Origin: a virus
DNA length: 22,483 nt
Reading direction: 5' to 3' (one strand)
IMG/VR virus record: IMGVR_UViG_3300004457_000084
Location: 1-22,483 of that record
In this document: positions 1-13,986 of the stretch, in pieces
Position numbering within the stretch: position 1 is the stretch's first letter
Layout of the letters: each line of letters begins with the position of its first letter
Translations under genes and position numbers: made by a program
Notes under the pieces: generated by a model
What the model saw: the letters and a program-made list of their open reading frames with translations, nothing else
Told to the model about the DNA's origin: nothing
Databases searched by the model: none

Positions 1-51
1 ATGAAATGGAACAAGCCTGGCGAGCCGGTGTTGCCGAGGGGGAAGAAATGA
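1..51 (+). CDS. C-terminal end of an unidentified gene (partial)
   Basis: An open frame runs from the window edge to a TGA at 49-51. The last 16 residues are charged and proline/glycine-containing (ending PRGKK). The stop overlaps the preferred start of the GcrA-like gene at 48 in an ATGA arrangement, the coupling used repeatedly in this window, and this is the only support for calling it a gene. The first visible codon is ATG, but the true start may lie upstream. No function can be assigned. Confidence 0.4.
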   Translation: MKWNKPGEPVLPRGKK

Positions 52-263
52 GCTTTTTCAACTGGACGCCGGAAATCTGCGACACGATCCGCGCATGGTG
101 GGAGATCGGCAAGTCCGCCGGGTGGATCACGCGCGAGCTGAACGGGCCGTCCCGCAACAGCATCATCGGCAAGCTGCACCGGATGGGTGCGGTGCGGGGC
201 GAGCGCGGGCGGCAGGAGCCGGAGTGCCTGGCCGCGAGCGCCAAAGGCCGCAAGCGCATCTAG
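48..263 (+). CDS. GcrA-family regulator, N-terminal DNA-binding half (ends at an in-frame amber codon)
   Basis: GcrA proteins are alphaproteobacterial transcription factors that bind DNA, often methylated GANTC sites, through an N-terminal helix-turn-helix. They contact sigma70 region 2 through a C-terminal domain. The 71 residues here match the N-terminal part: a WTPEICDTIRAWWEIGKSAG stretch at residues 6-25, then a recognition-helix region with SRNSIIGKLHRMG at residues 35-47. I chose ATG 48 because it follows a GAGGGG ribosome-binding site and overlaps the previous stop as ATGA; ATG 6 is the upstream alternative. The frame stops at TAG 261-263, but the same frame continues straight into a recognisable GcrA C-terminal domain (264-494). 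As read, the product can bind DNA but lacks the sigma-binding half. The family call is firm; whether the protein is active is unknown. Confidence 0.85.
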   Translation: MSFFNWTPEICDTIRAWWEIGKSAGWITRELNGPSRNSIIGKLHRMGAVRGERGRQEPECLAASAKGRKRI

Positions 264-494
264 ACGACAGTTAAGCCGCCAACGCCTCCGGAGGTAGAGC
301 GTGTCGTATTGCCATTTGCGATTGGCGATTTTTCGCCGCGCGGGCACTGCCGGTTCATCCATGGAGACCCCGCAACGCCGAGTTGGGCGTGCTGTATCGA
401 AAAGGCTGTGCCAGGCCGGTCTTACTGCCTCGACCATGCGCGGATCGTGTTCGCGCCGGCAAGGAAGGTGGCGAATGCAGCCGCTGGGGATTGA
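264..494 (+). pseudogene. GcrA C-terminal (sigma-interaction) domain, in frame after the amber codon
   Basis: Reading on after TAG 261-263 without changing frame gives a proline-rich linker and then a cysteine/histidine-containing block with CRFIHGDP, a CC pair and SYCLDH, ending at TGA 492-494. This matches the conserved GcrA C-terminus (C-x-W/F-x-x-GDP ... F-C ... YC-x-x-H), which in Caulobacter binds sigma70. The two halves together encode about 148 residues, close to normal GcrA length, so one nonsense codon is the only defect. No good independent start is visible: TTG 309 is 14 bases from the GGAGG at 290-294, a long spacing. The last 20 bases overlap the methyltransferase start. Alternatives are readthrough, a suppressor tRNA or a sequencing error. 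TAG ends several other genes here, so the codon is not generally reassigned. Confidence 0.75.
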
Positions 495-1284
495 TCTGTT
501 CTGCGGCCTCGGGGGCTGGACGGAAGGGTTACTTGCGGAGGGTTATTACGTGGTTGGGTTCGACATCGAGCGGCATCAATACGGCGATGCGAAGTATCCG
601 GCGCAGTTGGTGTTGCAGGACGTGACTACGCTGCATGGTTCGCAATTCCGCGATGCGGCGTTGATTGTCGCTTCGCCGCCCTGTCAGGAGTTTTCATATA
701 TGGCTATGCCGTGGTCGAAGGCGAAGGCGAAGGAGCGCGACTTGCTTGAAGGGCGCGACGATCCGAAGCGCCTAACCGCGCTATTCGATGCATGCTTTCG
801 CATCCAGCGCGAGGCGTGCGAAGCGGCTGGGCGGCACATTCCGATGGTCGTGGAAAACGTCCGCGGCGCGCAGAAATGGGTCGGGCGCGCGAGGTTCAAC
901 TATGGGAGCTTTTACCTGTGGGGCGATGTTCCGGCGCTGATGCCGGCTGGAAACCATACCACGGTTGGGGGTATTAATTGGTCGAAATTCGGCGAGCCCG
1001 GCTACAAGGCTAAGGCATTCACCTCCACGGCTGAGCAGCGGTTCCGATTGGAGCACAGCGGCATCAAGGGCATTCCGCCCCGCACGAAGGGCCATTTGAC
1101 CAACCCGGCAGAGCATGAGGGCGGAACCAAGGTTGGCGGCAACTGGTGGCACGATCCCAATTCGCCGTCGTGCACAAGCTCCAGCGGCTCACACGCCCGC
1201 AAGGCCGCATCCGCCATGATTGCCAAAATTCCGAAGCCGCTGTCCCGGCACATAGCGATGGTGTTCAAGCCATGCGCAGAGTGA
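475..1284 (+). CDS. C5-cytosine DNA methyltransferase
   Basis: This enzyme should transfer a methyl group from S-adenosylmethionine to carbon 5 of cytosine in DNA. The 269 residues contain the SAM-binding motif I (IDLFCGLGGW, residues 6-15), the catalytic PPCQ loop (residues 68-71, nucleophile Cys70) and motif VI ENV (residues 127-129). Motifs IX and X and a long target-recognition domain are not obvious; the protein is short, as many phage enzymes are. ATG 475 is preceded by AAGGAAGG at a good distance. A GTG at 301, six bases after a GGAGG, would add 58 residues, but that stretch is the out-of-frame shadow of the GcrA C-terminal domain, so I reject it. No partner restriction enzyme is visible, so protection from host restriction or a regulatory mark is more likely than a restriction-modification pair. 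Sequence specificity cannot be read from the sequence. Confidence 0.88.
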   Translation: MQPLGIDLFCGLGGWTEGLLAEGYYVVGFDIERHQYGDAKYPAQLVLQDVTTLHGSQFRDAALIVASPPCQEFSYMAMPWSKAKAKERDLLEGRDDPKRLTALFDACFRIQREACEAAGRHIPMVVENVRGAQKWVGRARFNYGSFYLWGDVPALMPAGNHTTVGGINWSKFGEPGYKAKAFTSTAEQRFRLEHSGIKGIPPRTKGHLTNPAEHEGGTKVGGNWWHDPNSPSCTSSSGSHARKAASAMIAKIPKPLSRHIAMVFKPCAE

Positions 1285-1682
1285 CGTTCGCGGAGTGCCA
1301 GAAGGCCGTGCTGGACCATTTCGGCATCAGCAAGACCGCGCTGCTAGGCGACACGCGGCGGCGGTCAATCGCTTGGCCGCGAATGATCCTGATGGTGATG
1401 GCGAGGGAGTTTACCGGCATGACAACGGCGGCGGTCGGTCGCCGACTTAACCGGGACCATTCTACGGTCATCGTAAATTGCCGTCGTGTTGGCAGATTGT
1501 GCGTATCTGACCCAAGCTTTTGCGCCGATGTGGACGCGATCCGGCACCGGCTCGATCTTATTTCTTGCGGCGCCCGAGACGAAGAATATGTCCAGGCCGT
1601 CCAGGTTTGGAATGTGAGTTACAAGCCGTCGTCTCCTGTCGTGGCGCCGCCAGTGCGGTTGATCCGGCACAAATACCTATGA
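1272..1682 (+). CDS. DnaA domain IV-like DNA-binding protein
   Basis: The 136-residue product carries the C-terminal DNA-binding domain of the chromosomal replication initiator DnaA but no AAA+ ATPase. Residues 28-75 read as the domain IV signature: an R-R-x-S-I-A-W-P-R helix, an REFTGMT turn and the NRDHSTVIVNCRRV recognition segment (residues 60-73), whose RDHSTV matches the DnaA consensus. A role in recognising a phage origin, or in interfering with host DnaA at its boxes, is inference. The start ATG 1272 overlaps the methyltransferase stop by 13 bases, so the two are probably co-transcribed and translationally coupled. An upstream extension to 1146 is a shadow of the methyltransferase. 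I saw no convincing cluster of DnaA boxes nearby. Confidence 0.75.
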   Translation: MRRVTFAECQKAVLDHFGISKTALLGDTRRRSIAWPRMILMVMAREFTGMTTAAVGRRLNRDHSTVIVNCRRVGRLCVSDPSFCADVDAIRHRLDLISCGARDEEYVQAVQVWNVSYKPSSPVVAPPVRLIRHKYL

Positions 1683-3901: not shown

Positions 3902-4399
3902 ATGGGGTTAGTCGGGAGAAGGATAAAATGCCGGGAGTGCGGCGGGCAATTTATCGAAAATAGGCAGTGGCAAGTTTTTTGCCAAATTGATTGCCGCCGC
4001 AGATGGAACAAACGCTTTCGGGAAATCTGTTTCTATTGCGGTTCTTTTGGAGATCATCGGGATCACGTTTTGCCGCACTCGTACCGAACGCTAAATTTCA
4101 AAAGGCATTTTGGGGAATTGGAGTACGTTTTTGCATGCACGGAATGCAATTCTATACTTGGTGCGAACATTTTTGAGACAATTTTTGAGCGAGTCGAATA
4201 TGTGGCGAGCGCCATCTACGCCCGCAATAAACTCAGCATAGGTGCGGTGGAATGGGACGAGGAAGAATTAGGAGAACTGGGGCCAAGTCTAAAGCGCCGC
4301 ATTAAAAAAATGCTTTCTAAGCGCCGGATCGCAGAAGATAGGTATGTTTACGCAAAGATGATCTCAGCCGAGTTTAATAATTCAAAAGACGAGGTTTAG
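3902..4399 (+). CDS. HNH endonuclease with an extra zinc-binding motif
   Basis: The 165-residue protein begins with a four-cysteine zinc motif (Cys10, Cys13, Cys27, Cys31). An HNH-type core follows: CFYC (Cys43, Cys46), RDHVLPHS (Asp54-His55) and CTECN (Cys79, Cys82, Asn83). This arrangement is seen in small phage HNH nucleases. The C-terminal half is charged and helical with no known domain. ATG 3902 is chosen; TTG 3884 would add six residues but lies in the hairpin loop. The gene is clearly more AT-rich than the flanking replication and terminase genes, which suggests separate acquisition. It faces a convergent GIY-YIG gene 33 bases away. HNH genes next to terminases sometimes aid packaging, so that role is an alternative to homing. 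Confidence 0.8.
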   Translation: MGLVGRRIKCRECGGQFIENRQWQVFCQIDCRRRWNKRFREICFYCGSFGDHRDHVLPHSYRTLNFKRHFGELEYVFACTECNSILGANIFETIFERVEYVASAIYARNKLSIGAVEWDEEELGELGPSLKRRIKKMLSKRRIAEDRYVYAKMISAEFNNSKDEV

Positions 4400-9309: not shown

Positions 9310-10172
9310 TGGCCGGCACGAAAAACAATCAGGCGGAAAAGCTTAGCATTGAGCAAATGCGCGCGATGGCCATTGAGAACATGGCCTCGAATGCGCAGTT
9401 GCGGCTTCCGGCGTTGCCGGTGGTGAATGAGCACGACGGGGCTTTCGTCATCGTCGGCGGCGGGCCGTCTGTACTGTCGCGTCTTGGTGATATCGAGCGC
9501 AGGCAGAGGAATGGTGCTGCGGTTGTCGCGTGCAATGGCGCGAATTTGCTGTTGCGCAAGCACGGTATCGTGCCTGACTACGCGCTGTTTCTGGACCCGC
9601 AGGAGATCGTCGCGGACTACATCGAGGACGATGCCGGCGAAGAGACAACATACCTCACGGCGGTCATGCTTCACCCAAAGGCAATGGCAAAGCTGACAAA
9701 GCCGCACGTGTTTATGTTCCATGCCGAGATACCGGAAGCCATCGGCGAAAAATATCACGCGATGATACAGGAGTGGCCTGTCATCCCTACCTCGGTGGGC
9801 GGCTTCGGCAACACCGTTTGCCTTCGCGCCATCAACATCGGGCATTTGCTGGGCTATCGCGAGTTCCACTTGTACGGCGTGGATAGCTCCTATCCGAAGG
9901 GTGGGGCCGACCATGCCTATGTCAACTCTCACAGCGTCGAGCCTGACGCGATGGAAATCCGCTTCGATGGCAAGATGTACACGGCATCGCCATGGATGGT
10001 TGTCCAGGCGGACGATTTCAAGAAATACCATCTTCAATTCCATAACCTCGGGTGCCGCGTGAAAGTGCATGGCGATGGGCTGATGCCGGATATGTCGCGG
10101 CATTTGGACGCCAAGCGCACGAAATGGCTGATTTGGAAAACCTCTCGCGAACTGGTGTCCGCAAATGGCTGA
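9309..10172 (+). CDS. DUF115/Maf-like protein (possible glycosyltransferase)
   Basis: The 287 residues carry the DUF115 (6-hydroxymethylpterin pyrophosphokinase MptE-like) pattern. This is a nucleotide-binding GGGPS loop (AFVIVGGGPSVLS, about residues 45-57), an ALFLDPQE segment near residue 93, and SVGGFGNTVCLRAINIGHLL followed by HLYGVDSSY (about residues 162-195). Known relatives include flagellin Maf glycosyltransferases, which transfer nonulosonic acids, and archaeal MptE. The fold therefore does not fix the reaction; given the other sugar-transfer genes in this window, transferase activity is my inference. The start overlaps the portal stop (TAATG). The stop overlaps the next gene in ATGGCTGA. 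It interrupts the usual portal-to-scaffold order. Confidence 0.75.
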   Translation: MAGTKNNQAEKLSIEQMRAMAIENMASNAQLRLPALPVVNEHDGAFVIVGGGPSVLSRLGDIERRQRNGAAVVACNGANLLLRKHGIVPDYALFLDPQEIVADYIEDDAGEETTYLTAVMLHPKAMAKLTKPHVFMFHAEIPEAIGEKYHAMIQEWPVIPTSVGGFGNTVCLRAINIGHLLGYREFHLYGVDSSYPKGGADHAYVNSHSVEPDAMEIRFDGKMYTASPWMVVQADDFKKYHLQFHNLGCRVKVHGDGLMPDMSRHLDAKRTKWLIWKTSRELVSANG

Positions 10173-10971
10173 CACTAAAATCAGCGCGTTGCCGACCGAT
10201 GTGACGACGCTTGCGGCGGGGGACCGTTTCCCGATTGCCGATGTGAGCGCGAGCACGACGGACACGTATTGCACGTCCACGGAGATACAGACCTTTGCAT
10301 GCAATGCGCCGGTGTTCGCGGCAGGCTCCGCAAGCGCGAATAGCTGGCCTAAGCTGACGGTCGGCACGCTGTTGACGACAGCGGAAGACGGCGCCATCGA
10401 AATGGACGCCGATTGTCTGTACGGCTGCACGGACGCGGGCAATCGCGGCGTGATCCCGGTCATGCACTTCATTCGTGCGGATGCGGCGCGCAATCTGACC
10501 AACTCGACGGCAGAACAGAAGATATTCGATAGCCCGAGCGCCGGTAAGCTCGCCCTCGAAACGGGGTGCTACCGCTTCGAGGCGCAGCTTTACATCACGA
10601 GCATGTCCGGCACGTCCGGCAATGTGCGGTTCTCGCCGGTTGGGACCACCACATCGACCACGGCCACATCGGCGGCGTTCTTGTGGCATGCTTGGGGCAT
10701 CGACGCGACGGCGCCAACGACGGCGGCGACGCAGACGGGATCGTTCGCGGTAACCAGCCAGACGGCGGCAGCCGTGTCGCTTGTGACGGCGGCGACAGGG
10801 ACGGGGATGGGCGCGTCGATCAGCGGATCGTTCGAGATCAGCGGTGCAGGCAACATCGTGCCGACAGTCATTCTGTCCACGGCGGCGGCGGCAAGCATCA
10901 ATATTGGAACCTACATCGCCTATTGGAGGATTGGCAGCACGTCGGTCGCGAGCGTCGGGCAGTGGTCATAG
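10165..10971 (+). CDS. Virion protein, first copy of a tandem pair
   Basis: The 268-residue product begins with the TKISALP-type leader typical of phage head or tail decoration and fibre proteins. It continues with a conserved middle (GTLLTTAEDGAIEMD, then CLYGCTDAGNRGVIP, about residues 66-100). The last 140 residues are Thr/Ser/Ala/Gly-rich, beta-predicted, and end with a GSFEISGAGNIVPTVIL ... IGTYIAYWRIG pattern that resembles trimeric TNF-like or jelly-roll tip domains. The neighbour at 10972 is a clear paralogue over its whole length. Receptor binding or capsid/tail decoration is plausible. The start overlaps the DUF115 stop by 8 bases. Confidence 0.72.
   Translation: MADTKISALPTDVTTLAAGDRFPIADVSASTTDTYCTSTEIQTFACNAPVFAAGSASANSWPKLTVGTLLTTAEDGAIEMDADCLYGCTDAGNRGVIPVMHFIRADAARNLTNSTAEQKIFDSPSAGKLALETGCYRFEAQLYITSMSGTSGNVRFSPVGTTTSTTATSAAFLWHAWGIDATAPTTAATQTGSFAVTSQTAAAVSLVTAATGTGMGASISGSFEISGAGNIVPTVILSTAAAASINIGTYIAYWRIGSTSVASVGQWS
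10306..10325 (+). repeat. 20-bp direct repeat, copy 1 (paralogue pair)
   Basis: GCGCCGGTGTTCGCGGCAGG occurs here and again at 11110-11129, 804 bases apart, at the same codon phase in the two paralogous virion genes. A second shared run, AGCGTCGGGCAGTGG, ends both genes (10951-10965 and 11746-11760). These are remnants of the tandem duplication and possible recombination points. Confidence 0.85.
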
Positions 10972-11766
10972 ATGGCGAACAAGAAGATCACATCGCTGAC
11001 GGACGTGGTAACGCTCGCGGCAGGCGACCTCTTCGCCATCAACGACGTGAGCGCGGCCGGGGTGAACACGTTCGCCACGGCAACGGAGGTGAAAACCTTC
11101 ATCTGGACGGCGCCGGTGTTCGCGGCAGGGACTTCCTCGGCGAACACATGGCCGAAGTTCACATCCGGGACATTGCTTACGACAGCGGAAGACGGTGCGA
11201 TCGAGGTCGATACCAATTGCATTTACGGATGCACCGATGCGGGGAACAGGGGGGTAATCCCGCTCAAGCATTATATCCGCGCCGATGCGACGAACACGCT
11301 CACCAGCACGACAGCGCGGCAGAAGCTGTTCGCATCTCCTACAAACGGGACGCTGACGCTGGAAACGGGCGTCTACTTCTTCAATTGCCTGTTCCGTCTT
11401 TCGTCGATGAGCAGCACGAACGGGAATTGTTCCGTTTCGCCGAAGGGCGGCGGCACGGCGACAACCGGGAAGTGCCTGTCGCATTATTGGGGCTGGGACA
11501 ACAACGGCACGACGGCGAACAGAACCGTGGCGGGGTCGTTCACGGTGACGGCCTCGACGCTTTCGTCGGCGCCGGTCGTGACGGCGAACACTGCGACGGT
11601 GCTGGAATTGAGCGGGCGCGGATCGTTCGAGGTAAGCGGCGCTGGGACGATCATACCGTCGATTACGCTGCTGACGGCGGCGCCTGCCGTTCTCGGCATC
11701 GGATCGTATTTCGAGATTTACCGTGTTGGCGCAACAGGCGTCGTCAGCGTCGGGCAGTGGAGTTAG
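10972..11766 (+). CDS. Virion protein, second copy of the tandem pair
   Basis: This 264-residue protein is a paralogue of the preceding gene. It shares TDVxTLAAGD near the start, the APVFAAG and GTLLTTAEDGAIE blocks, C-x-YGCTDAGNRGVIP, a matching FEVSGAGTIIPSITLLTA strand region and the terminal SVGQWS. The variable parts lie mainly in residues 110-215, where sequence and length differ. This pattern suggests duplication followed by divergence of an exposed surface. ATG 10972 directly follows the stop of the first copy. It may form mixed trimers with the first copy or act as an alternative receptor-binding tip; neither can be read from the sequence. Confidence 0.72.
   Translation: MANKKITSLTDVVTLAAGDLFAINDVSAAGVNTFATATEVKTFIWTAPVFAAGTSSANTWPKFTSGTLLTTAEDGAIEVDTNCIYGCTDAGNRGVIPLKHYIRADATNTLTSTTARQKLFASPTNGTLTLETGVYFFNCLFRLSSMSSTNGNCSVSPKGGGTATTGKCLSHYWGWDNNGTTANRTVAGSFTVTASTLSSAPVVTANTATVLELSGRGSFEVSGAGTIIPSITLLTAAPAVLGIGSYFEIYRVGATGVVSVGQWS
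11110..11129 (+). repeat. 20-bp direct repeat, copy 2 (paralogue pair)
   Basis: Identical to the copy at 10306-10325 and located at the equivalent position of the second paralogue. Confidence 0.85.
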
Positions 11767-13479: not shown

Positions 13480-13986
13480 ATGACGGTTGCGGCACTCATT
13501 ACCGAAGGCATCGGGCCCGGCAGCTCGCTGCTTTTTGTGATGACGGGCGGGCTAGGCAGCGGTGCGGCTGCTCCCCAAGCCGCAGTTGTGGACGAATTTC
13601 GCAAGCACGGTGCTTCCCGTCGCGCGAACTGGCCGCCGCAGCGGTTCTATCTGCCGCCCGGGTGGAAGGAGAAGAAAGAGCTTCCAAGCATCGAGCAAGT
13701 CAAGGCGCTCTATGTCGAGGCGCGCAAGGAAATACCGCTGGAGGCGCAGGCCGGACTTCTCCCGGAGGCCTTCAGGCTTCGCGCCAAGGGCACGAAGAAA
13801 CTGCCGGCAGCGGCGAGCGTCGATTTCGAGGCGCTGCGCCGGAATATCGAGGTGTTGCAGGGGATCGTGACCGCCCTTGCGGAGTACGATGCTGATTTCG
13901 CCGCGGAGCAGGCCGAGGCGGAGATCATTGCGAGGCGCCGCAAACGGGAAGAAGAGGCGCTGATTGTCATCCTGCTCAACTCATAG
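13480..13986 (+). CDS. Hypothetical protein in the structural operon (168 aa)
   Basis: The N-terminal 30 residues are hydrophobic and glycine-rich (ALITEGIGPGSSLLFVMTGG), a leader often found on small phage proteins next to beta-rich structural genes. The remainder is charged and helical (EQVKALYVEARKEIPLEAQ; later AEQAEAEIIARRRKREEE). No signal peptidase site is clear and a membrane segment is doubtful. Its position before the scaffold suggests an assembly role; the family is not recognised. Confidence 0.65.
   Translation: MTVAALITEGIGPGSSLLFVMTGGLGSGAAAPQAAVVDEFRKHGASRRANWPPQRFYLPPGWKEKKELPSIEQVKALYVEARKEIPLEAQAGLLPEAFRLRAKGTKKLPAAASVDFEALRRNIEVLQGIVTALAEYDADFAAEQAEAEIIARRRKREEEALIVILLNS

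Follow-up and report, generated by a model that had tools for sequence, protein, structure and literature searches.

A phage gcrA frame interrupted by a single TAG between its DNA-binding and sigma-binding domains

The window, by which we mean the whole 22,483-base stretch analysed, carries at positions 48-494 of the plus strand one frame coding for a GcrA-family protein, in which a DNA-binding domain (DBD), a linker, a TAG at 261-263 and a sigma-binding domain (SID) follow in that order. Translation from 48 gives MSFF...KGRKRI*TTVK...AAAGD*, with the TAG as the sole internal stop and TGA 492-494 closing the frame. The start at 48 is backed by homologues and by GAGGGGGAAGAA immediately upstream, and an in-frame ATG at position 6 is a less likely alternative gcrA start. 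The gene is made up as follows:

48-263, plus strand: N-terminal part of GcrA, with the DBD (residues 1-47) and the start of the linker (PF07750, structure model); expected product 71 aa
261-263, plus strand: TAG stop, in frame, within the linker between the domains (translation, genome profile search)
264-494, plus strand: C-terminal part of GcrA, with the remaining linker, the SID (about 309-467) and TGA 492-494 (PF07750, leave-one-out score, structure match)

The profile PF07750, whose cut-off is 26.9 bits, was exceeded by the whole 48-494 frame (65.9 bits, E 7e-18, profile 2-150 of 155) and by the N half taken separately (43.0 bits, profile 2-58). The sequence-only reading had named a poor match of residues 88-148 to GcrA as the result that would count against a split gene; the C half in fact matched at 27.7 bits (profile 110-150). 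An independent PF07750 search of the genome returned a single match, 60-467, with '1 TAG' inside, and the score against the NCBIfam equivalog NF050816 (GcrA sigma70 cofactor), 55.6 bits, lay below its cut-off of 280. Same-frame open stretches are common in this 22,483-base, 60% G+C sequence: the plus strand has 29 adjacent same-frame pairs of 60 codons or more, and the chance expectation for the 76 open codons after the stop is about 7%. The evidence for a split gene therefore comes not from the open frame but from the C half, whose match to the profile is collinear. A frameshift or larger damage in gcrA was ruled out, as a single stop is the only lesion. These results, together with the superposition on solved structures described below, bear out the earlier assignment of 48-494 to the GcrA family, with the TAG as the only interruption of one frame, and a gcrA with a single in-frame stop is a real feature of the deposited phage sequence.

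In Caulobacter crescentus GcrA, the DBD occupies residues 1-45 and the SID, which binds to domain 2 of sigma, residues 108-173, with a disordered linker at 46-107 between them (PMC7403470). The window frame shares this order with the C. crescentus protein (PF07750; PDB 7ye1, 5yiv, 5yix) but is phage-borne, has a shorter linker and is interrupted within it. Modelled with AlphaFold2, the read-through frame had pLDDT values of 88-96 in the DBD and 89-96 in the SID (10-residue blocks), with a loose linker. The model DBD, an N-terminal helix-turn-helix, superposed on the solved C. crescentus DBD 5yiv at 0.8 A over 44 columns (TMt 0.92, Foldseek), and the model SID superposed on the solved SID 5yix_B, also at 0.8 A. 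Because the model thus resolves into a confident DBD and a confident SID joined by a loose linker, the TAG falls between domains, and the proposal that the two halves are separable DNA-binding and sigma-binding domains agrees with both the model and the published Caulobacter layout. Residues invariant across 20-21 aligned GcrA proteins are kept on both sides of the TAG, and the key SID residues C101, C116, Y126, C127 and H130 are all present in the C half. Under the standard code, this Cys/Tyr-Cys/His core lies behind the TAG and outside the polypeptide that carries the DBD. Phages of the phiCbK group also encode GcrA homologues (gp222), which have been proposed to steer host replication (PMC3556154); like the protein studied here they are phage-encoded members of the family, but their match to GcrA is ungapped and spans the entire protein, and the phages are different and much larger.

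Recoding of TAG, as in phages with an alternative code, was considered and rejected, as several genes in the record end with this codon. TAG terminates at least four other genes, at 10971, 11766, 13986 and 20062, and probably a further one at 4399; the TAG at 10971 is directly adjoined by the next ATG, and that at 13986 is immediately followed by GGAGGTTTTATG. No tRNA genes were found in the window, although the record is a linear 22,483-base fragment and tRNAs may lie elsewhere in the phage or in its host. With the code unaltered, the expected product is therefore a 71-aa protein with the DBD and without the SID, as in the SID-less GcrA-DBD proteins of other phages, and the C-terminal part, 264-494, is probably untranslated at present.

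The genes and motif next to the split are:

290-295, plus strand: GGAGGT, Shine-Dalgarno-like, 5 nt before GTG 301 in the methyltransferase frame and 13 nt before TTG 309 in the SID frame
475-1284, plus strand: C5-cytosine DNA methyltransferase (PF00145, 33.2 bits), whose relatives start at the same point
1275-1682, plus strand: stand-alone DnaA domain IV (Bac_DnaA_C) protein, next but one after gcrA (PF08299, 68.8 bits)

The first 20 nt of the methyltransferase gene overlap the end of the SID frame, which is the usual operon arrangement for an intact upstream gene. A methyltransferase start at GTG 301, with its good GGAGGT, was rejected, since in relatives the start corresponds to ATG 475 and no N-terminal extension is conserved; the GGAGGT is probably a chance occurrence inside Pro-Glu-Val codons. 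A scan with the DnaA-like neighbour (1275-1682) found no relatives. DNA-binding pieces of two host cell-cycle regulators, GcrA and DnaA, thus lie close together in one phage.

GANTC, the CcrM site, occurs 17 times in the window against about 98 expected from dinucleotides, is absent from the first 2.5 kb and is the most depleted of all NN-N-NN palindromes in the window. Depletion of GANTC has been reported for many pelagiphages (PMC9516812), and the terminase relative L169 has no GANTC in 15.7 kb. Given this depletion and the fact that GcrA is characteristic of the Alphaproteobacteria, the host is probably a member of that class. With few GANTC sites in the phage itself, the DNA targets of its GcrA would mostly be host promoters.

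To see the split in context, GcrA genes were gathered from viral contigs by protein similarity and neighbourhood and scanned with PF07750 and with our own DBD and SID profiles. About 21 distinct SID-bearing GcrA genes in other viral contigs are all open from DBD to SID, and the window holds the only split one; a second copy of the TAG site was not found among these contigs, a set that may contain no near-identical records. Among alphaproteobacterial genomes, 159 of 385 had a match, and no linker stop could be demonstrated among the matches listed for them. Four listed matches contain a stop (G421, G416, G250, G343); each extends to the end of the query range (144-147), none of the stops is resolved to the linker, and at all four loci a single frame carries both domains. 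What looked like stops in G001 and G041 were the ends of complete genes, the short bacterial matches L150-L153, which looked DBD-only, have a SID after a short linker, and the apparent SID-only hits L058-L062 are full-length divergent GcrA. Related phages differ in having gcrA at all, and the record with the closest portal (57%) had no GcrA match. In L093 (IMGVR_UViG_3300010368_000031), with a portal 45% identical, the same region holds a gcrA, 4.5 kb upstream of the portal gene, but its product is intact, 184 aa long and has a long linker. The nearest GcrA found was 30-36% identical overall and 48% over the DBD. As the searches turned up no near relative whose frame is intact, the argument for a recent stop rests on the lack of decay and not on comparison.

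The SID half shows no visible decay. Its leave-one-out score was 40.5 bits, within the 25.8-71.4 of intact SIDs, and the DBD, at 61.6 bits, was likewise in the middle of the range of the others (26-90). In a drift simulation that starts from the present sequence and ignores indels (including them would tighten the bound), fewer than 5% of cases stayed free of another stop and kept the five key residues after free drift of the SID half beyond 0.2 substitutions per site. The overlap of 20 nt with the methyltransferase start is preserved as well. Since the SID half is undecayed, the stop is young, or the main population lacks it, or SID production continues; to judge from the sequence, the lack of decay speaks for a recent event rather than for a functional split kept over a long time.

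We consider the locus most probably a recent nonsense allele of an ordinary, lately full-length phage gcrA with its stop in the linker, and give this reading a probability of a little under 0.6. The full-length ancestor, like host GcrA, would have docked sigma70 RNA polymerase at GANTC-methylated promoters and so steered the host cell cycle. A nonsense codon would then have arisen in the linker, translation from 48 to 261 would give a 71-residue DBD protein without the SID, and the SID sequence downstream would be a fresh relic whose decay has not yet begun. The short form, if stable, would bind GANTC-methylated DNA but could not recruit polymerase; activation would therefore be lost, and the residual effect would be passive competition. 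The sequence-only reading had likewise foreseen DNA binding without polymerase contact. This follows directly if the TAG terminates and has counterparts in the SID-less proteins of other phages, but any function of the short form is hypothetical. After recent truncation, a selected short form, an artefact and readthrough are possible readings, in that order.

GcrA proteins without a SID do occur in other phages, and this leaves room for a selected short form. Phaeobacter phage MD18 encodes a 124-aa protein (QJA43130.1) with a DBD 71% identical to that of C. crescentus GcrA (Pfam 66.6 bits), and no SID was found at this locus in any forward frame of 5.1 kb. The Brevundimonas jumbo phages Marchewka, Papperlapapp, Bambus, Domovoi and Kikimora have proteins of 173-182 aa, annotated 'cell cycle regulator', with a GcrA DBD and no SID. 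Two viral contigs, L124 (80 aa) and L128 (52 aa), have a GcrA DBD above the Pfam cut-off and no SID, with no further GcrA match in these possibly incomplete records, and L129 has a 90-aa GcrA-DBD-like protein, below the cut-off, near a DUF1376-type replication gene. In L129 (93-1776), the GcrA-DBD-like gene is followed by a small HTH/DnaA-IV-like ORF and then by the DUF1376-type replication protein, an order resembling that of the window minus the methyltransferase, with the DnaA-IV and DUF1376 likenesses judged by eye only. SID-less phage GcrA proteins were not found as a described group in the part of the literature that our search covered. MD18, Marchewka, Bambus, Kikimora and the others share with the product expected here a GcrA DBD without a SID, and a short form of this kind is, on sequence comparison, also encoded by several unrelated phages.

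Some further architectures were seen during this comparison. Lactobacillus phage CL2 (L245, 1201-2418) and about 38 related records from Lactobacillus phages carry a GcrA-like DBD as the front part of a fusion with a DNA repair exonuclease-like protein; these fusions are annotated 'GcrA cell cycle regulator', a name that is probably misleading. Brevundimonas phage Bajun (L251, 688-1395) has a GcrA with two tandem DBDs and one SID, and the viral contig L084 looks similar.

The short form could have been selected as a regulator, either competing with host GcrA at methylated promoters as a dominant negative or regulating phage genes alone. Besides the natural proteins of MD18, the five Brevundimonas phages and L124, L128 and L129, the Caulobacter structures 5yiu and 5yiv are consistent with this, as they show a DBD of this size folded and bound to methylated DNA on its own. 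We nevertheless regard it as unlikely, at about a third of the weight of recent truncation. The counterparts end cleanly, carry C-terminal tails of their own or have no SID nearby, whereas the window retains at 264-494 an undecayed in-frame SID relic for which a long-kept short form would have no need; moreover, Caulobacter GcrA is reported to be a dimer (PMC3667746), which places the dimerisation of a short form in question. As we see it, natural SID-less proteins prove that the format exists, not that the truncation here is functional. Slightly more doubtful is the broader suggestion that phages repeatedly turn GcrA into a DNA-binding-only competitor by shedding the SID, with this locus caught at the step just after the cut by a stop.

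A sequencing, assembly or minority-variant artefact, with the frame open in the main phage population, has a smaller chance again. It would fit a lone stop in an otherwise undecayed gene when all compared GcrA genes are intact, and the IMG/VR record of 22,483 bases, classed as linear, is probably a metagenome assembly. However, the other recognisable genes (portal, terminase, major head protein, methyltransferase) have their full length and give no hint of general error, and a well covered assembly seldom has a single-base error in its consensus. It is improbable that the stop is leaky, with occasional UAG readthrough yielding a small amount of full-length GcrA alongside the DBD-only form and so setting a ratio of activator to competitor. 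The SID is undecayed and in frame, and the stop is immediately followed by a hairpin at 264-307 (z -2.1; 9 of 200 shuffles fold as well), but the hairpin signal is weak, a larger fold containing the hairpin is no better than shuffles (z -0.43), no suppressor tRNA was found in the window, and among the viral contigs and the listed alphaproteobacterial matches no stop at that place could be shown for another GcrA. Least credible of all is that two proteins are made, the SID being produced as a free sigma-binding peptide by re-initiation at TTG 309: the GGAGGT at 290-295 and the in-frame TTG do lie just ahead of the SID, but the 13-nt spacing is poor, the motif sits within ordinary Pro-Glu-Val codons, and a SID-only GcrA was found in no related locus.

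If the short form works, the locus would be a simple natural test of GcrA's need for sigma contact and would reveal a strategy by which a phage uncouples methylation-dependent transcription from the cell cycle of its host. If the locus is only a nonsense allele, some populations would be able to do without phage gcrA. In both cases, there are cultured phages with SID-less GcrA proteins in which such proteins can be tested, and their recurrence is a more useful lead than the split itself.

Elsewhere in the window, two adjoining genes of the virion region, 10165-10971 and 10972-11766, neither of which had a PHROG match, have similar starts (MADTKISALPTDVTTLAAGDRF / MANKKITSLTDVVTLAAGDLF) and are apparently a tandem duplication.
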